Shown here piece after piece: positions 1,409 through 19,410 of a DNA stretch of 20,876 bases. The notes below the pieces were generated by a model, which ran no database searches, was not told where the DNA came from, and saw nothing but the letters and a program-made list of their open reading frames with translations. Source of the DNA: an uncultured Pseudomonadota bacterium (GTDB lineage Bacteria > Pseudomonadota > Gammaproteobacteria > Burkholderiales > SG8-41); assembly GCA_946885605.1 (NCBI GenBank), contig CAMPGR010000058.1, positions 1-20,876 on the forward strand, given 5' to 3'. A program made the position numbers and the translations under genes. How positions within the stretch are numbered: position 1 is the first letter of the stretch; every line of letters starts with the position of its first letter.

Positions 1409-1587
1409 TTCTGCATAAACCGGCGCTTAGCCGCGCACGTGCGGCGCGGCGGCGATGCTGCCGCGCAAAATTCGTTTGCCTTTTTTACCGGCTTCGGGAA
1501 GAATAGCGCCTCTTTTTCAGGGGCTTACTGGAATTCGATGTCTTCGAAGCGCCGCCAACGACCCCAATAACTTCCGCGTTCCATTGC

Positions 1588-2691
1588 ATGTCAGATCTTT
1601 CGACGCTTTCCGTTATTCAAACCGCTTCTCCGCAGCTCCCCGTTCACTGGTATTTCGACCCGCTTGTCTACGAACTCGAAAAGCGGCTGCTGTTCGACGC
1701 GGGGCCGGGCTACGTCGGCCACGAGCTCATGGTGCCGAACGTCGGCGACTACCAGACGCTCGACTGGCTCGCCCATTCGAAAGCGCTCGTGCACGGCGAG
1801 ATGGGCGTACAGCTCCTTTCGAACGTGTGCCGCCACCGGCAGGCCATTATCCTGAAGGGGCGCGGCACCGCGCGCAACATCGTCTGCCCGCTGCACCGCT
1901 GGACCTATGACCTTGGCGGGAAGCTCCTCGGGGCGCCCAGGTTTCCAGGCAACCCCTGCCTAGATCTAGCGAAATCGCCGCTTACCCGCTGGAACGGGCT
2001 GCTTTTCGCGGGGCGACGCGACGTTGCGCGCGACCTCGCATCGCTCGGTGTCACAGGGCACCTCGAATTTTCGGGCTTCATGTTCGACCGCGTGGAGGTC
2101 GAGGAGTACGCCTGCAACTGGAAAACGTTCATCGAAGTCTATCTCGAGGACTACCACGTCGAGCCGTTTCATCCGGGACTCGGAAACTTCGTGAACGTCT
2201 CGGATCTCCACTGGGAGTTCGGCGAGTGGTACAGCGTTCAGACGTGCGGAGTGAAGTCGGCCCTCGCCCGCCCCGGCAGCGCGGTCTATCGGCGCTGGCA
2301 CGAGCAGGTGCTGCGCTACGGGGAAGGCAGCATGCCGAACTACGGCGCGATCTGGCTCACGTACTTCCCGAACATCATGGTGGAGTGGTATCCGCATTCG
2401 CTGGTGGTGAGTACGATCATTCCGCGTGGTCCCGAAGCGTGCACGAACGTGGTCGAGTTCTATTACCCCGAAGACATCGTGCTCTTCGAGCGCGAGTTCG
2501 TGGAAGCGGAGCAGGCGGCGTATCGGGAGACCGCCGTCGAGGACGCGGAGATCTGCGAGCGCATGACTACGGGGCGCAGGGCGCTCATGCAGCAGCGGTT
2601 GAACGAGACCGGGCCCTACCAGTCTCCGCTCGAGGACGGCATGGCCCACTTCCACCAGTTCCTGCGGCGACACATCGAGCCGCATCTCTGA
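1588..2691 (+). CDS. Rieske [2Fe-2S] aromatic-ring-hydroxylating oxygenase alpha-subunit-like protein
   Basis: A 367-residue protein with a complete Rieske cluster motif: Cys81-x-His83, then Cys100-x-x-His103 (within CPLHRWTYD). A C-terminal catalytic domain carries EDYHVEPFHPGL, where His190 and His195 are the expected mononuclear Fe(II) ligands. This is the layout of RHO alpha subunits, including choline-monooxygenase and demethylase types. The substrate cannot be told from sequence. No beta subunit or reductase gene is adjacent. The sulfurtransferase follows after 18 bases, so the two are probably co-transcribed. I see no strong Shine-Dalgarno sequence before the ATG at 1588, so the exact start is slightly uncertain, but the protein does begin at a plausible distance from the Rieske domain. 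Confidence 0.88.
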   Translation: MSDLSTLSVIQTASPQLPVHWYFDPLVYELEKRLLFDAGPGYVGHELMVPNVGDYQTLDWLAHSKALVHGEMGVQLLSNVCRHRQAIILKGRGTARNIVCPLHRWTYDLGGKLLGAPRFPGNPCLDLAKSPLTRWNGLLFAGRRDVARDLASLGVTGHLEFSGFMFDRVEVEEYACNWKTFIEVYLEDYHVEPFHPGLGNFVNVSDLHWEFGEWYSVQTCGVKSALARPGSAVYRRWHEQVLRYGEGSMPNYGAIWLTYFPNIMVEWYPHSLVVSTIIPRGPEACTNVVEFYYPEDIVLFEREFVEAEQAAYRETAVEDAEICERMTTGRRALMQQRLNETGPYQSPLEDGMAHFHQFLRRHIEPHL

Positions 2692-13290: not shown

Positions 13291-14064
13291 ATGGACGCGG
13301 TAGCGGAAAAATTCGTCCTCTTCACCCAGCCCGGGTGAAGCTCCTGCCTCAGAGCGAAAGAGTTTCTTTCGAAAAAAGGCATCGACTTCGAGGTCGTCGA
13401 TGTGTTGAACGACCCGGGCGGGCGGGAGCGTCTCACGCAGCTCGGCATTCGCAAGATACCTGCCGTCGCAAAGGGCAAGGAATACGTCTTCGGCCAGAAT
13501 CTGGAGGACGTCGCCCAGTTCGTCGGCCTGTCGGGAACCGGCCACAAGCCGCTGCCGCCCGCGGAGCTCGTCAGACGATGGATCATCGTGCTGCGCGCCG
13601 CGCAGCGCTACATACGCCAGATCCCCGATGATCGCCTCGCGGAACGCGTCATCCCGAACCGCGACCGTCCGATACGGCTCCTGGCGCATCACGTGTTCCG
13701 CATCGGGGAAGCGTTCGTGGAGACGATGACCGAAGGCAAGGAATACGCGGAGTATCACGCGCAGCAGCCGCCCGCCGAAGGCACCATGCTGAACGGCGGG
13801 GAAATCGTCGAATACGGCGATCGCGTGATTCAGCGCATCGAAGAATGGTGGCGCACTTCGAAAGGCGCCGCGCCGCAGCAGCCGGTGAAAACCTACTACG
13901 GCGATCAGCCGCTGCACGAATTGCTCGAGCGCTCCACGTGGCACTCGGCGCAGCACGGGCGGCAGCTGATGGCGCTGCTCGAACGTTTCGGCATCGAGCC
14001 CGACGCGCCGCTCACGCCCGGCGAGCTTGCCGGCCTGCCCCTGCCCGAGCGGCTTTGGGAATAG
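13291..14064 (+). CDS. Selenoprotein: glutaredoxin-like domain (Sec-Ser-Ser-Cys) fused to a DinB-like domain
   Basis: Read through the in-frame TGA at 13336-13338, this is one 257-residue protein. Residues 1-75 form a glutaredoxin-like domain: KFVLFTQPG, then Sec16-Ser-Ser-Cys19, helix LRAKEFLSKKG, strand IDFEVVDVLN, and IRKIPAVAKG holding the cis-Pro loop. The TGA occupies exactly the N-terminal redox position, where homologous folds carry Cys. Residues about 90-250 look like a DinB four-helix bundle with candidate metal ligands in LLAHHVFRIGEAF and STWHSAQHGRQLMALL. AAGGAA before the ATG at 13291 gives a ribosome site. A SECIS-like hairpin follows the TGA, and selA, selB and selC lie downstream. 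Standard calling would give only 13402-14064 from a GTG, without the active site. A thiol-selenol reductase or transferase role is inferred. Confidence 0.9.
13336..13338 (+). other. In-frame TGA selenocysteine codon
   Basis: Codon 16 of the glutaredoxin-DinB gene. The frame is open on both sides (45 bases before, more than 720 after), and both sides translate to one continuous thioredoxin-fold start. The codon falls at the first position of the CxxC-type motif, giving UxxC, the commonest selenoprotein redox arrangement. The local presence of selA, selB and tRNA-Sec supports decoding as Sec and argues against a nonsense mutation. Confidence 0.9.
13346..13380 (+). promoter_or_regulatory. Bacterial SECIS element candidate
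   Basis: A perfect 7-bp upper stem CGAAAGA (13355-13361) / TCTTTCG (13365-13371) closes a GTT apical loop. A lower stem GCCT (13346-13349) / AGGC (13377-13380) is joined by a symmetric 5x5 internal loop. The loop starts with G, 23 bases after the TGA. That agrees with the bacterial SECIS pattern: a small loop with G in its first two positions, about 16-37 bases from the UGA. It would bind the C-terminal winged helices of SelB. The hairpin lies in the coding sequence of the first helix after the redox motif. Confidence 0.8.
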
Positions 14065-14081: not shown

Positions 14082-14114
14082 AAAAAGCCGCGATGCGTCG
14101 CGGCTTTTTGTTTT
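14082..14114 (+). terminator. Rho-independent terminator after the selenoprotein gene
   Basis: AAAAAGCCGCGA pairs perfectly (12 bp) with TCGCGGCTTTTT around a TGCG tetraloop, and further T residues follow. It begins 18 bases after the TAG stop, so the selenoprotein gene is transcriptionally separated from selA. Confidence 0.95.
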
Positions 14115-14225: not shown

Positions 14226-15650
14226 ATGCTGAATTCGGCGCCAGCCGCGCGTCGCGCGCTGCCCTCGGTCGATCGCCTGCTCAACGCTGAACCGATCGCC
14301 GCGCTCGTTTCCCGATACGGTCGTCCGCTTGTCGTAGAAACCGTGCGCCGGCTGCTGGAGGCGCACCGCTCCGTGCTCGCGTCGGACGATGGCGCGAGGC
14401 CGTTCGACGAGTCCGCTTTCGCCACGGCGTGCAGCGCGGACCTTGCATCGCAGGCCGAGCCGTCGCTGCGCAGGGTCTTCAATCTGACCGGCACGGTGCT
14501 CCATACGAATCTCGGCCGGGCACCGATGCCGCAAAGCGCTGTGCGCGCGGTCGCCGAAGCCATGACGCATGCCGTCAATCTCGAGTTCGATCTGGCCGGC
14601 GGCGCACGCGGGGAGCGCGACGCGCATGTCGAACGCCGGCTCATGCGGCTCACGGGTGCGGAAGCGGCGCTCGTGGTCAATAACAATGCCGCCGCGGTGT
14701 ACCTCGTTCTCAATACGCTCGCGACGCGTAAGGAAGTGCTCGTTTCGCGCGGCGAGCTGATCGAAATCGGTGGCTCCTTCCGCATGCCCGATATCATGGC
14801 GCGTTCCGGCTGCAAGCTCGTCGAAGTCGGAACGACGAACCGCACGCATCCCGGCGATTTCGCCGCGGCGATCTCGCCACGCACCGCTGCCATCATGAAG
14901 GTCCACACCAGCAACTATTCGATCCAGGGGTTCACGGCGGCCGTGCCCGAGCAAGAGCTTGCGAGAATCGCGCACGACAACGACCTGCCCTTCATCGTGG
15001 ACCTCGGAAGCGGGATGCTCCTGGATCTCGACCGCTATGGACTGCCGCACGAGCCCACCCCGCGCGAGACGCTCGCCAGCGGCGCGGACCTCGTCACGTT
15101 CAGCGGCGACAAGCTGCTGGGCGGCCCGCAGGCGGGAATGATCGTAGGCAGGAAGGATCTCGTCACGCGCCTCAGGAAGAACCCGCTCAAGCGCGCGTTG
15201 CGGGTCGACAAGATGACGCTCGCCGCACTCGAAGCGGTGCTGCGCCTTTATATGGATCCGGATCGGGTTGCCTCGGAGCTGCCTACACTCAGGTGGCTGC
15301 TGCGGCCGCTTGCCGATATCGAGGCGCAGGCCGAGCGCCTGCTGCCGCACGTGGCGGCGGCCGTGAAGGGCGCGGCCGAGGTATCGGTCGTCTCCTGTGC
15401 GAGCCAGATCGGCAGCGGTTCACTGCCCGTCGATTCTCTGCCGAGCGCGGGCATCGCGATCGCAGGCGGCAAGCGCCGCGGCTCGCTGGCGGAAAGGACC
15501 GCAGCCGCATTCCGTGCGTTGCCGATTCCGGTGGTCGGCCGCATCAAGGACGGCGCCTACCTCATGGATCTGCGCTGCCTCGACGACGAAGCCGCATTCG
15601 TCGCCCAGCTCGGGGCTCTCAAGCTCGCGGCTGCCGGCGAGCACAAGTGA
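14226..15650 (+). CDS. selA: L-seryl-tRNA(Sec) selenium transferase SelA
   Basis: A 474-residue PLP enzyme that converts Ser-tRNA(Sec) to Sec-tRNA(Sec) using selenophosphate. The N-terminal region [22 protein letters not shown] is the tRNA-binding start of the family. [54 protein letters not shown] and [15 protein letters not shown] are all characteristic; Lys296 in SGDK is the PLP-binding lysine (Lys295 in E. coli). Length is close to the usual 463 or so. The ATG at 14226 lacks a strong ribosome site. selB follows 13 bases downstream. The 110-base upstream gap holds an imperfect palindrome near 14124-14142 and a TTGAGC at 14126 that could be a -35 box, with no convincing -10. Confidence 0.97.
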
Positions 15651-15663
15651 AAGGGATTGCGCG

Positions 15664-17679
15664 GTGATCGTCGCAACCGCAGGACACATCGACCACGGCA
15701 AAACGCTGCTCGTCAAGCGCCTGACCGGCGTCGATACCGACCGCCTGCCCGAGGAAAAGGCGCGCGGCATCTCGATCGATCTCGGCTTCGCCTACCTCGC
15801 GCTCGCGGGGGGCGGAACGATCGGCTTCGTGGACGTTCCGGGGCATGAGCGCTTCATACGCAACATGCTGGCGGGCGTATGCGGGATCGATTTTGCGCTG
15901 CTGGTGGTGGCTGCCGACGACGGCATCATGCCCCAGACCATCGAGCACTTGAATATCCTGGATCTCTTGAACGTGCGGCGCGGCGCGGCGGTCATCACGA
16001 AAATCGATCGCGTCGATGACAACCGCGTGCGCGAGGTGAGCGACAGCGTCCAGGCGTTCCTCGCGACGACGAAGCTCGAGTCGGCGCCGGTGCTTCCCGT
16101 GTCCGCATTGACCGGCGCTGGCATCGAAGCGCTGCAGACGCTGCTCAAGGCGGAAGCTGCATCGTTGACGGTGCGGCGCTCCGAGGGGCAGCGTTTCCGG
16201 CTCGCGATCGACCGCGCCTTCACCGTGGCGGGCAGCGGAACCGTGGTGACCGGGACAGTGTTCAACGGTGTCGTAAAAACGGGAGACAAGCTCATGCTTT
16301 CTCCCGCCGGCGTGCCGGTACGGGTGCGAGCGCTGCAAATCCGCGGCGAAACGGCTTCCGAGGCGCGCGCGGGCGAGCGCTGTGCGCTCAACCTGAGCGG
16401 GGCGGGTCTCGATTCGGTGCGCCGCGGCGACTGGGTGCTCGACGAAGCGCTGCATGAGGCGACGCAGCGCATCGATGCGCGGGTGACGGTGCTCGGCGCC
16501 GAGCAGGAGGGCCTGCGGCACTGGACACCGGTTCATCTGCACCTTGCTACGGCTGACGTGCTGGCGCGCATCGCGATCCGGCGGGGCGAGTCGATCGGGC
16601 CGGGGAGCACCGCGCTCGCGACGCTCGTGCTCGAAAAACCGGTCAGCACGCTTCACGGCGACCGCTTCATACTGCGCGACCAGTCGGGAAACCGCACGCT
16701 GGGCGGCGGCATTGTGCTCGATCCATTTTCGCCATCGGGTCGTGCGCGGGGCTCCGTCCGGTTTGCAATGCTCGCCGCCTACGAAGAGGAATCGCTCGAA
16801 GACACGCTCGCTGCGCTCGCCAGAGTGTCGATCACAGGCATCGATCTCACGCGCTTCGAGAAAATGTTCAACCTCACGCCGGAGCGCGCGTCCGGGCTTT
16901 ACGCAGCCGCTGGCATCGTCGCAGTGGGTAAGGAATTGCGGGTCGGCATCACCCGCGCGCAACACGAAGCGCTGCGGGAAAAGATCCCTGCGGCGCTGGC
17001 GGCGTTTCATGCCGAAACACCTCAGGCACTCGGGAAGGAGATCGAGGCGTTGCGCGCGGAACTTGCGGCACAGTTGCCGGCGGACGTGTTCGCCGCGCTC
17101 GTGCGCGGCCTTGCCGACGAGCGCAAAGTCGAAGTGAGCGGTGCGCTCGTCCGGTTGCCCGGCCACAATCCCACATCCAATCCCGAGGACGACCGGTTGT
17201 GGCAAATGGTACGGCCCGCGCTGGAATCCGCGGGGTTCGCGGTCCCACCGATCCGCGAGCTGGCGGCGAACCTCAAGTTGAAGGAGCCGGTGCTGAAGGA
17301 TTTCCTGCATCGCAAGGCACGCGGCCGCGAAGTGATGAGAGTGACCGGAGACCGGTTCTACCCGCGCGCTACGCTCGCCACGCTGGCGGCGATCGCCAAG
17401 GCGACGTCCGAGGCGCAGGCAAACGGCATGTTCACCGCGGCACAGTTCCGTGACGTGACCGGCATCGGGCGGACGCTTGCGATCGAGATCCTCGAATTTT
17501 TCGACACGCTGGGCATCACGCAGCGCATCGGCGACGCCCGGAAGATGCGCAAGGATTACATCCCCATACTGGGTGCCGCCGCCGGACCGGCGAGCCCTCC
17601 TCGCGCCGTAAAGGCGGCTGCCAACGTGCCGCATGCGAAGGCGAGATCACCGCGTCCGACGCATCCGGTCAAACGCTGA
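15664..17679 (+). CDS. selB: Selenocysteine-specific translation elongation factor SelB
   Basis: A 671-residue EF-Tu paralogue that delivers Sec-tRNA(Sec) to UGA codons marked by a SECIS. G1 GHIDHGKT (residues 7-14), G3 DVPGHE (57-62) and G4 TKID (112-115) give a complete GTPase. Domains II/III follow ([22 protein letters not shown]), then the C-terminal winged-helix repeats that bind SECIS RNA, ending near [25 protein letters not shown]. About 35 further residues form a basic, Pro/Ala-rich tail ([16 protein letters not shown]...), making it longer than E. coli SelB (614). The start is the GTG at 15664, preceded by AAAGGGA; the upstream in-frame sequence overlaps selA in another frame. The trxB-like gene follows 20 bases later. 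Confidence 0.97.
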
Positions 17680-17699: not shown

Positions 17700-18614
17700 G
17701 TGGCGCAAGCAAGCTATGACGTTCTGGTTGTCGGTGAAGGCATAAGCGGACTCACCGCCGCGCACGCCCTCGCGCAGTTCGGCATCAAGACCGCGACGCT
17801 GGAGGCGCAGCTCTTCGGCGGGCTGGTGCTCAACGTGAACGAGCTGGAACCGGCGCCCGACCCTTCGCACACGGTTTCCGGTGCGGAAATCGCCTCGGAG
17901 CTCATGCAGGCGAACGCGGATCTCGGCGTGACGAGCATTCAGGAAGCCGTCACGGCCATCAAGGACCGCGGCGCGACAAAGCAGTTAACGACGGCCGCGG
18001 CCACTTACGAAGCGCGCCACATCGTCCTCGCCTCCGGCGCGCGGTTGAAAAAGCTCGGCATTCCGGGCGAGTCCGAATTCGAAGGGCGCGGCGTGTCGCA
18101 GTGCGCCGATTGCGACGGCCCGATGTACCAGGATGAGGACGTGGTGGTCGTGGGCGGCGGAGACTCGGCGCTGCAGGAAGCGCTCGTGCTCGCGAAGTAT
18201 TGCCGCAATGTACGCATCGTGCACCGCGGCGCCGCTTTTCGCGCGCAGCCGCTTTTCGTCGATCAGGTGCGTTCGAATCCGCGCATTACGACCGTCTGGA
18301 ATGCGCGGGTGACGGCGATCGACGGGGGGCAGATGGTCGAGCGCGTGCGGATCGCCTACGCCGACAGCCGCAGCGAGGACATTCCGTGCGCCGGGGTCTT
18401 TGCCTATATCGGGCTTGCCCCGAACAACGAATTTGTGCCGCAGGAAATCGAACGGGATAGCGCGGGATTCGTCGTGACCGGGGAGACTCTGGAGACGGCG
18501 TTGCCCGGCCTATGGGCGGTCGGCGCTCTGCGCAGCCGCTACAGCGGTCTCCTGCCGGACGCGGTGTCGGAAGCAAAGCAAGCTGCGCGCGCGATAGCCG
18601 AGCGGCTCGCATGA
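17700..18614 (+). CDS. Thioredoxin-reductase-like FAD-dependent oxidoreductase
   Basis: A 304-residue low-molecular-weight TrxB-like flavoprotein. FAD loop VVGEGISGLTAA (GxGxxG, about 11-16), redox pair Cys135-Ala-Asp-Cys138 in SQCADCDGPMY, NAD(P)H loop VVVVGGGDSALQEALVLAKY, and C-terminal GLWAVGALRSRYSG, where the usual GD of the FAD site is replaced by GA. The N-terminal FAD segment is also less standard (GEGISG instead of GGGPAG). GTG start at 17700 with a strong AAAGGAG site. Being the third gene of a selA-selB operon suggests a role in reducing the Sec protein, a thioredoxin or selenium compounds; that is inference. The stop TGA sits in the loop of CTCGCA-TGA-TGCGAG, see findings. Confidence 0.9.
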   Translation: MAQASYDVLVVGEGISGLTAAHALAQFGIKTATLEAQLFGGLVLNVNELEPAPDPSHTVSGAEIASELMQANADLGVTSIQEAVTAIKDRGATKQLTTAAATYEARHIVLASGARLKKLGIPGESEFEGRGVSQCADCDGPMYQDEDVVVVGGGDSALQEALVLAKYCRNVRIVHRGAAFRAQPLFVDQVRSNPRITTVWNARVTAIDGGQMVERVRIAYADSRSEDIPCAGVFAYIGLAPNNEFVPQEIERDSAGFVVTGETLETALPGLWAVGALRSRYSGLLPDAVSEAKQAARAIAERLA

Positions 18615-19315: not shown

Positions 19316-19410
19316 GGAAGGGAATCGCTCCCGGTGGGGCGGCCGGACTTCAAACCCGGTAGGGGCCGCTGGCGGTCCTGTGTGGGTTCGACTCCCACTC
19401 TCTTCCGCCA
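19316..19410 (+). tRNA. selC: Selenocysteine tRNA (anticodon TCA)
   Basis: A 95-base tRNA-Sec including encoded CCA. The 8-bp acceptor stem GGAAGGGA / TCTCTTCC (one G-T pair), a long variable arm (about 19361-19380) and T arm GTGGG-TTCGACT-CCCAC give the 8+5 acceptor/T helix of bacterial tRNA-Sec. Discriminator G is followed by CCA. The anticodon loop CTTCAAA carries TCA at 19350-19352, which reads UGA. The anticodon stem CCGGA/CCCGG has an A-C mismatch next to the loop. The sequence closely follows E. coli selC in the loop and variable arm. Substrate of SelA and ligand of SelB, both encoded upstream. Confidence 0.97.

Follow-up and report, generated by a model that had tools for sequence, protein, structure and literature searches.

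The stretch of DNA considered here, referred to as the window, comprises 20,876 nucleotides of contig CAMPGR010000058.1 (assembly GCA_946885605.1) from an uncultured bacterium of the order Burkholderiales. It contains a gene at 13291-14064 on the forward strand, the stop codon TAG included, which encodes a glutaredoxin-like domain fused to a DinB-like domain (Grx-DinB) and very probably specifies a selenocysteine (Sec) residue. Reading of the window DNA shows that the frame is open throughout except for a TGA at 13336-13338, as the initial annotation of the sequence had described. This TGA is codon 16 and takes the N-terminal position of a CxxC-type active-site motif, Sec-Ser-Ser-Cys, in which U16 is followed by the second redox residue Cys19 (codon 13345-13347, forward strand). 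The ATG is preceded by GAAGGA, and the product has 257 residues when the TGA is read as Sec.

The assignment of a glutaredoxin part and a DinB part, made initially without database searches, holds. The glutaredoxin-like domain covers residues 9-65 (13315-13485) and matches PF00462 with 51.7 bits against a cut-off of 22.9, and the DinB_2 domain covers residues 105-226 (13603-13968) and matches PF12867 with 25.9 bits against a cut-off of 24.8. A confident structure model of the fusion protein also has the DinB fold, a four-helix bundle. On the second and fourth long helices of this bundle the model places three histidines, His134 (codon 13690-13692, helix 128-148) and the pair His218-x3-His222 (13942-13956, helix 208-232), which together form a predicted metal triad. 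Position 16 (Sec or Cys), Cys19, and the three histidines do not vary across 41 aligned relatives; the alignment behind this invariance and the structure model takes in 41 of the 58 distinct genes counted below, near copies being omitted. The motif WHxxQH is present in 240 of 240 database proteins (the best 120 of 3216 matches to the window protein and the best 120 of 1385 to the Cys form of the family). Among Protein Data Bank (PDB) sequences, the top match of the fusion protein is glutaredoxin 7c10 (E 1e-13), titled 'Dithiol cGrx1', which we take to be the Clostridium oremlandii selenoprotein. A profile of the DinB part found no DinB entry among the PDB matches listed, the best being a 'DHT03' protein followed by myosins, and resemblance to the glutathione S-transferase fold over the full length is too weak to use. 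The NrdH profile matches the fusion protein weakly (36.7 bits against a cut-off of 85.75), and thioredoxin reductase is therefore also a candidate reductant.

The codon in question is strongly patterned among relatives. A scan of genome contigs gave 14 loci, and in all 14 the matching codon is TGA and Ser-Ser-Cys comes next, so the TGA is not a chance occurrence. A search of 399 genomes from the same order detected relatives at E 1e-20 or better in 36 of them; several of the 36 carry two copies, and one carries four. The nearest relatives of the window are mostly metagenome-assembled Burkholderiales. Over 65 entries (64 loci and the window), codon 16 is TGA in 57, TGC in 7, and TGT in 1. After removal of duplicates, 58 distinct genes including that of the window have TGA in 50 cases and Cys in 8, so that UGA is conserved in relatives and alternates with Cys, as is characteristic of selenoproteins. 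Seven duplicates (L015-L019, L024, and L025) were dropped before the counts of 58, and a 63-residue fragment (G302:C51) was also left out; a divergent copy, L112, is in the tree described below and outside the 58 and the alignment, and another locus, L123, is outside all three. The comparison of homologues at codon 16 proposed at the outset thus found Cys or TGA in the relatives read. An error turning TGC into TGA, initially named as a possible refutation, is very unlikely because TGA stands at the same codon in 35 related genomes, and this explanation was rejected. Matches also occur in 14 plasmid records, 13 of them over at least 80% of the length. Cys is present in each of the six loci read among these 13 (three from Caballeronia and one each from Variovorax, Roseomonas, and Rhizobium); the fourteenth record, from Nocardia, matches over residues 5-130 only and likewise has Cys.

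Sixteen nucleotides after the TGA, within the codons for Ala-Lys-Glu-Phe-Leu-Ser, lies a hairpin resembling a selenocysteine insertion sequence (SECIS), CGAAAG-AGTTT-CTTTCG (13355-13371, forward strand). In bacteria, a SECIS is typically a short hairpin that follows the UGA closely. All six pairs are kept in 50 of 50 TGA genes, with CGAAGG and a single G-U pair in three of them, whereas the 8 Cys genes keep two to four of the six. Third-base diversity in the TGA genes is 0.019 over codons +6 to +11; the preceding five codons have 0.386 and the following 25 have 0.560. Over codons +6 to +11 of the Cys genes it is 0.512. The hairpin Leu codon is CTT and the hairpin Phe codon is TTT in all 50 TGA genes, whereas these make up 7.6% of Leu codons and 13.7% of Phe codons elsewhere in the same genes. 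The exact 17-mer occurs in 41 copies in 29 of the 399 genomes, and 40 copies are within a Grx-DinB gene; the remaining copy (G109) belongs to a terminator-like repeat, and a backward control sequence occurs twice. The TGA genes carry a downstream hairpin under RNA-level constraint, as expected of a selenoprotein gene and with a predicted role in decoding; folding energy alone does not discriminate them.

The genes for Sec synthesis and insertion stand close by. The Grx-DinB gene is preceded by mnmA and followed on the same strand by selA, selenocysteine synthase (14226-15650, TIGR00474), selB, the Sec-specific elongation factor with a GTG start (15664-17679, TIGR00475), a thioredoxin-reductase-like flavoprotein gene (17700-18614), and selC, tRNA-Sec with anticodon tca (19316-19410, RF01852, 75.8 bits). 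The proximity of selA, selB, and selC claimed in the initial annotation is thereby borne out. The flavoprotein, a candidate electron donor, scores 245.9 bits against a thioredoxin reductase equivalog cut-off of 343.45; besides the window, 14 other TGA loci have its gene after selB, and the protein could be a reductase devoted to selenoproteins. Between the Grx-DinB gene and selA lies an inverted repeat on the forward strand with 12-base arms and a 4-base loop, ending in T5 (14082-14109). It looks terminator-like by eye, and a simple terminator scan of the window did not list it.

Across the 399 genomes, 107 by hand count have tRNA-Sec at 66 bits or more; these include 26 of the 28 TGA-form genomes and 3 of the 8 in which only the Cys form occurs. 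This threshold was chosen because no scores fall between 52 and 66 bits; 204 of 399 genomes exceed the tool cut-off of 47 bits, and the many matches near 50 bits are taken for other tRNAs. The enrichment of tRNA-Sec in TGA-form genomes reaches 3e-14 in a hypergeometric test that ignores kinship, and selD scores over its cut-off in 27 of 28 related genomes. In 29 of 50 TGA loci, selA follows on the same strand at a distance of 14 to 5053 bases; a longer stretch for L028 raises the count to 30 of 50. None of the 8 Cys loci, three of them covered to 6 kb, has selA downstream, and neither selA nor selB appears in the examined flanks of these loci or of the plasmid loci. In four annotated neighbourhoods, the genes around Cys forms serve transport, catabolism, and regulation, and the neighbours of paralogues, taken from open reading frame lists with many shadow frames, give a loose pointer to transport and catabolism. 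On the Roseomonas plasmid (L117, 4309-7376), a Cys-type Grx-DinB gene lies between isochorismatase-family and AtzG-like/amidase genes in an ATP-binding cassette transporter cluster, a neighbourhood that hints at a catabolic role.

The alternation of TGA and Cys, the hairpin, and the nearby Sec genes support the initial inference of a selenoprotein at the level of sequence, and codon 16 is very probably decoded as Sec. However, several observations weigh against this account. With protein-preserving codon shuffles, the mean folding z is -0.91 for the 50 TGA genes and -0.92 for the 8 Cys genes (L032 at -4.67), and the hairpin stretch of the window has a z of -1.69, with 15 of 200 shuffles equally stable. 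The stem is near-constant and, as it hardly varies, shows next to no covariation; the reading as a SECIS-like hairpin is based on sequence constraint, not on folding energy. In 20 of 50 TGA loci the flank examined, short for some, shows no selA, and a transcript shared with selA is doubtful in the window owing to the terminator-like repeat in between. Two of the 28 TGA-form genomes, G065 and G366, have neither a clear tRNA-Sec nor SelB over the cut-off, and both consist of many contigs. An assembly gap is likely in G366, because selA adjoins its Grx-DinB gene, while in G065, whose SelD has no TGA, the assembly may be incomplete, the contig may be a stray, or the trait may be broken. The 3 Cys-only genomes with tRNA-Sec also belong here, as does L112 (4546-5271), the fourth and divergent TGA copy in G152, which keeps the exact hairpin and has lost His218 and His222.

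The explanation proposed, which is considered likely as a whole, is a Sec-decoded Grx-DinB protein in which a selenol redoxin is coupled to a metal-dependent, S-transferase-like site. SelB and tRNA-Sec would decode the TGA by way of the hairpin, and the 257-residue product would join the glutaredoxin-like domain to the DinB-like four-helix domain. His134, His218, and His222 would bind a metal; in DinB members other than mycothiol S-transferase, the metal is held by three conserved histidines, according to a review of thiol transferases (PMC10950700). By analogy with the mycothiol and bacillithiol S-transferases, the metal site may hold a thiol or thiol adduct, which the Sec-Cys pair would resolve or reduce. 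Glutathione, or the thioredoxin-reductase-like protein whose gene follows selB, could then restore the pair to its reduced form. A catalytic role of this kind, shared by the selenol redoxin and the metal site, is plausible but tentative. A self-contained S-transferase would go further: its own selenol, carried on the glutaredoxin domain, would face the DinB metal site and replace free mycothiol, bacillithiol, or glutathione, the chemistry being done by a built-in, rechargeable selenol. This version seems unlikely.

The TGA could instead be a real stop after a dead fragment, the true product being a DinB-like protein with a length near 220 residues and a start at GTG 13402, which is the gene that gene finders predict. 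The database proteins closest to the window protein (best 120 of 3216; proteins only, not DNA) fit this description, since they have 219-238 residues and all start past the TGA site. However, such a product would lose the opening strand-helix-strand segment of the glutaredoxin fold together with the active site. Over the eight codons ahead of the TGA (-8 to -1), 0.466 of third bases and 0.253 of first and second bases differ among the TGA forms, so coding constraint reaches up to the TGA, and the codon alternates with Cys. Database matches to the Cys form (best 120 of 1385) are full-length in 120 of 120 cases, with the glutaredoxin part and Cys-x-Ser-Cys, and go by the names 'glutaredoxin' or 'DinB family protein'. 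The hairpin, moreover, persists in the TGA forms, whereas the Cys forms do not preserve it. A true stop with a short DinB product was rejected on the upstream constraint, the full-length Cys relatives, and the TGA-specific hairpin, and is regarded as highly improbable. The late starts of the listed window-protein matches and the full length of the listed Cys forms therefore indicate that the fusion is real and common as a Cys form, and that gene callers appear to truncate the TGA form. As the relatives compared share the TGA and hairpin or have Cys, gene finders that halt at TGA likely cut such proteins short.

Granted that the protein contains Sec, the DinB domain could still be a structural or docking domain attached to an ordinary Sec thiol-disulphide reductase. 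The stronger Pfam match of the glutaredoxin part (51.7 against 25.9 bits) and the loss of two of the three histidines in L112 would suit such a protein, whereas the invariance of His134, His218, and His222 in 41 sequences and the WHxxQH motif in all 240 listed database proteins argue against it; the docking role is rather unlikely. A selenoprotein for detoxification, with Sec and the DinB site binding a metal or metalloid such as mercury or arsenic, has a precedent in that Sec in UXX-star and Sao proteins may serve as a metal ligand, as stated in a 2026 review (PMC13188914). In contrast, the four annotated Cys-form neighbourhoods have transport, catabolic, and regulatory genes and no mercury- or arsenic-named gene, and this function is judged improbable.

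Compared with the bacterial selenoprotein glutaredoxins (Grx, PF00462, UxxC; e.g. from Clostridium oremlandii), the Sec-decoded Grx-DinB protein has the same fold and places Sec at the same N-terminal active-site position. The known examples are single-domain proteins, whereas here a DinB domain follows. With the DinB/YfiT S-transferase-like superfamily (mycothiol S-transferase, bacillithiol transferase BstA, and mycothiol-dependent maleylpyruvate isomerase) it shares the four-helix bundle and the invariant three-His set. Those enzymes use a free small thiol, whereas in Grx-DinB a Sec redoxin is built into the chain. The UXX-star domain (NF041212) and the HUGP/GUXX-star fusions (NF045501) are also glutaredoxin-like selenoprotein domains, but the likeness is weak: scores of 35.2 bits against 66 and 22.2 bits against 325 are far below the cut-offs, and membership of UXX-star was rejected. 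The Cys-type Grx-DinB proteins of Paraburkholderia, Caballeronia, Variovorax, Roseomonas, Rhizobium, and others have the same architecture, with Cys for Sec and WHxxQH. The hairpin of the TGA form is not kept in the 8 compared, and L032 folds strongly another way.

The initial suspicion that the union of the two domains may be new stands for the Sec form, as far as searched, and fails for the fusion itself, since full-length Cys forms are common. Table 1 of the 2026 review of prokaryotic selenoproteins has 119 families or subfamilies, none of them a glutaredoxin-DinB fusion, and the word 'DinB' is absent from its main text (PMC13188914). No NCBIfam model (June 2026) matches the fusion protein over its cut-off, and searches of Pfam, NCBIfam, and PubMed Central turned up no named family for the Sec form, papers being judged by title and opening of the abstract, and subscription journals and preprints being outside the search. 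On account of this absence, the gene is seen as the predicted Sec variant of a fusion family that already exists but has no name, a variant with a SECIS-like hairpin of its own.

In a quick tree with 51 TGA and 24 Cys sequences (75 in all), one branch parts the two forms, with support of 93, not starred. A phylum-wide search, which scored at most six candidates per genome and may have missed some, recovered family members at E 1e-30 from 2 of 398 genomes, the centre genome being one of the two. The other match, L123 in G541 (1501-2229, minus strand), has TGA, but the surrounding residues read VFWQPG as in the Cys clade and the predicted hairpin differs; its genome has SelB, and L123 may be a second gain of Sec.

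The related genomes look very selenoprotein-rich. Of the 28 genomes with a TGA-form Grx-DinB, 26 also have an in-frame TGA in SelD. UGSC-family (NF041046) matches number at least 24 per genome in G068 and G152; among the matches listed, all but one have one TGA, and most score below the family cut-off. Of 12 UGSC-like loci read in G152, 11 have TGA before GSC or GAC, and a hairpin is visible by eye in many. The same genome has TGA-bearing peroxiredoxin-like genes, SelD, and four Grx-DinB copies, for a rough total of about 30 selenoproteins. The loci noted in this connection are L128-L135 and L137-L139 in G152 and L142, L143, L146, and L147 in G001. The largest prokaryotic selenoprotein set reported by 2022 is 39 (PMC9312934). 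A molybdopterin search gave TGA in one match among those listed (G013:C94). The idea that Grx-DinB is the main client of the Sec machinery was rejected, since SelD, peroxiredoxin-like, and UGSC-like genes with a TGA are present in the related genomes as well.

The Sec-decoded Grx-DinB would add to the selenoproteins a family with an architecture outside the 119-entry 2026 table, adjoining Sec genes in many of the loci read. It is present in up to four copies per genome and appears shortened in its closest database records (best 120 of 3216). It would also give the DinB enzymes a selenium member, and with it a test of whether a protein-borne selenol can replace a small thiol.
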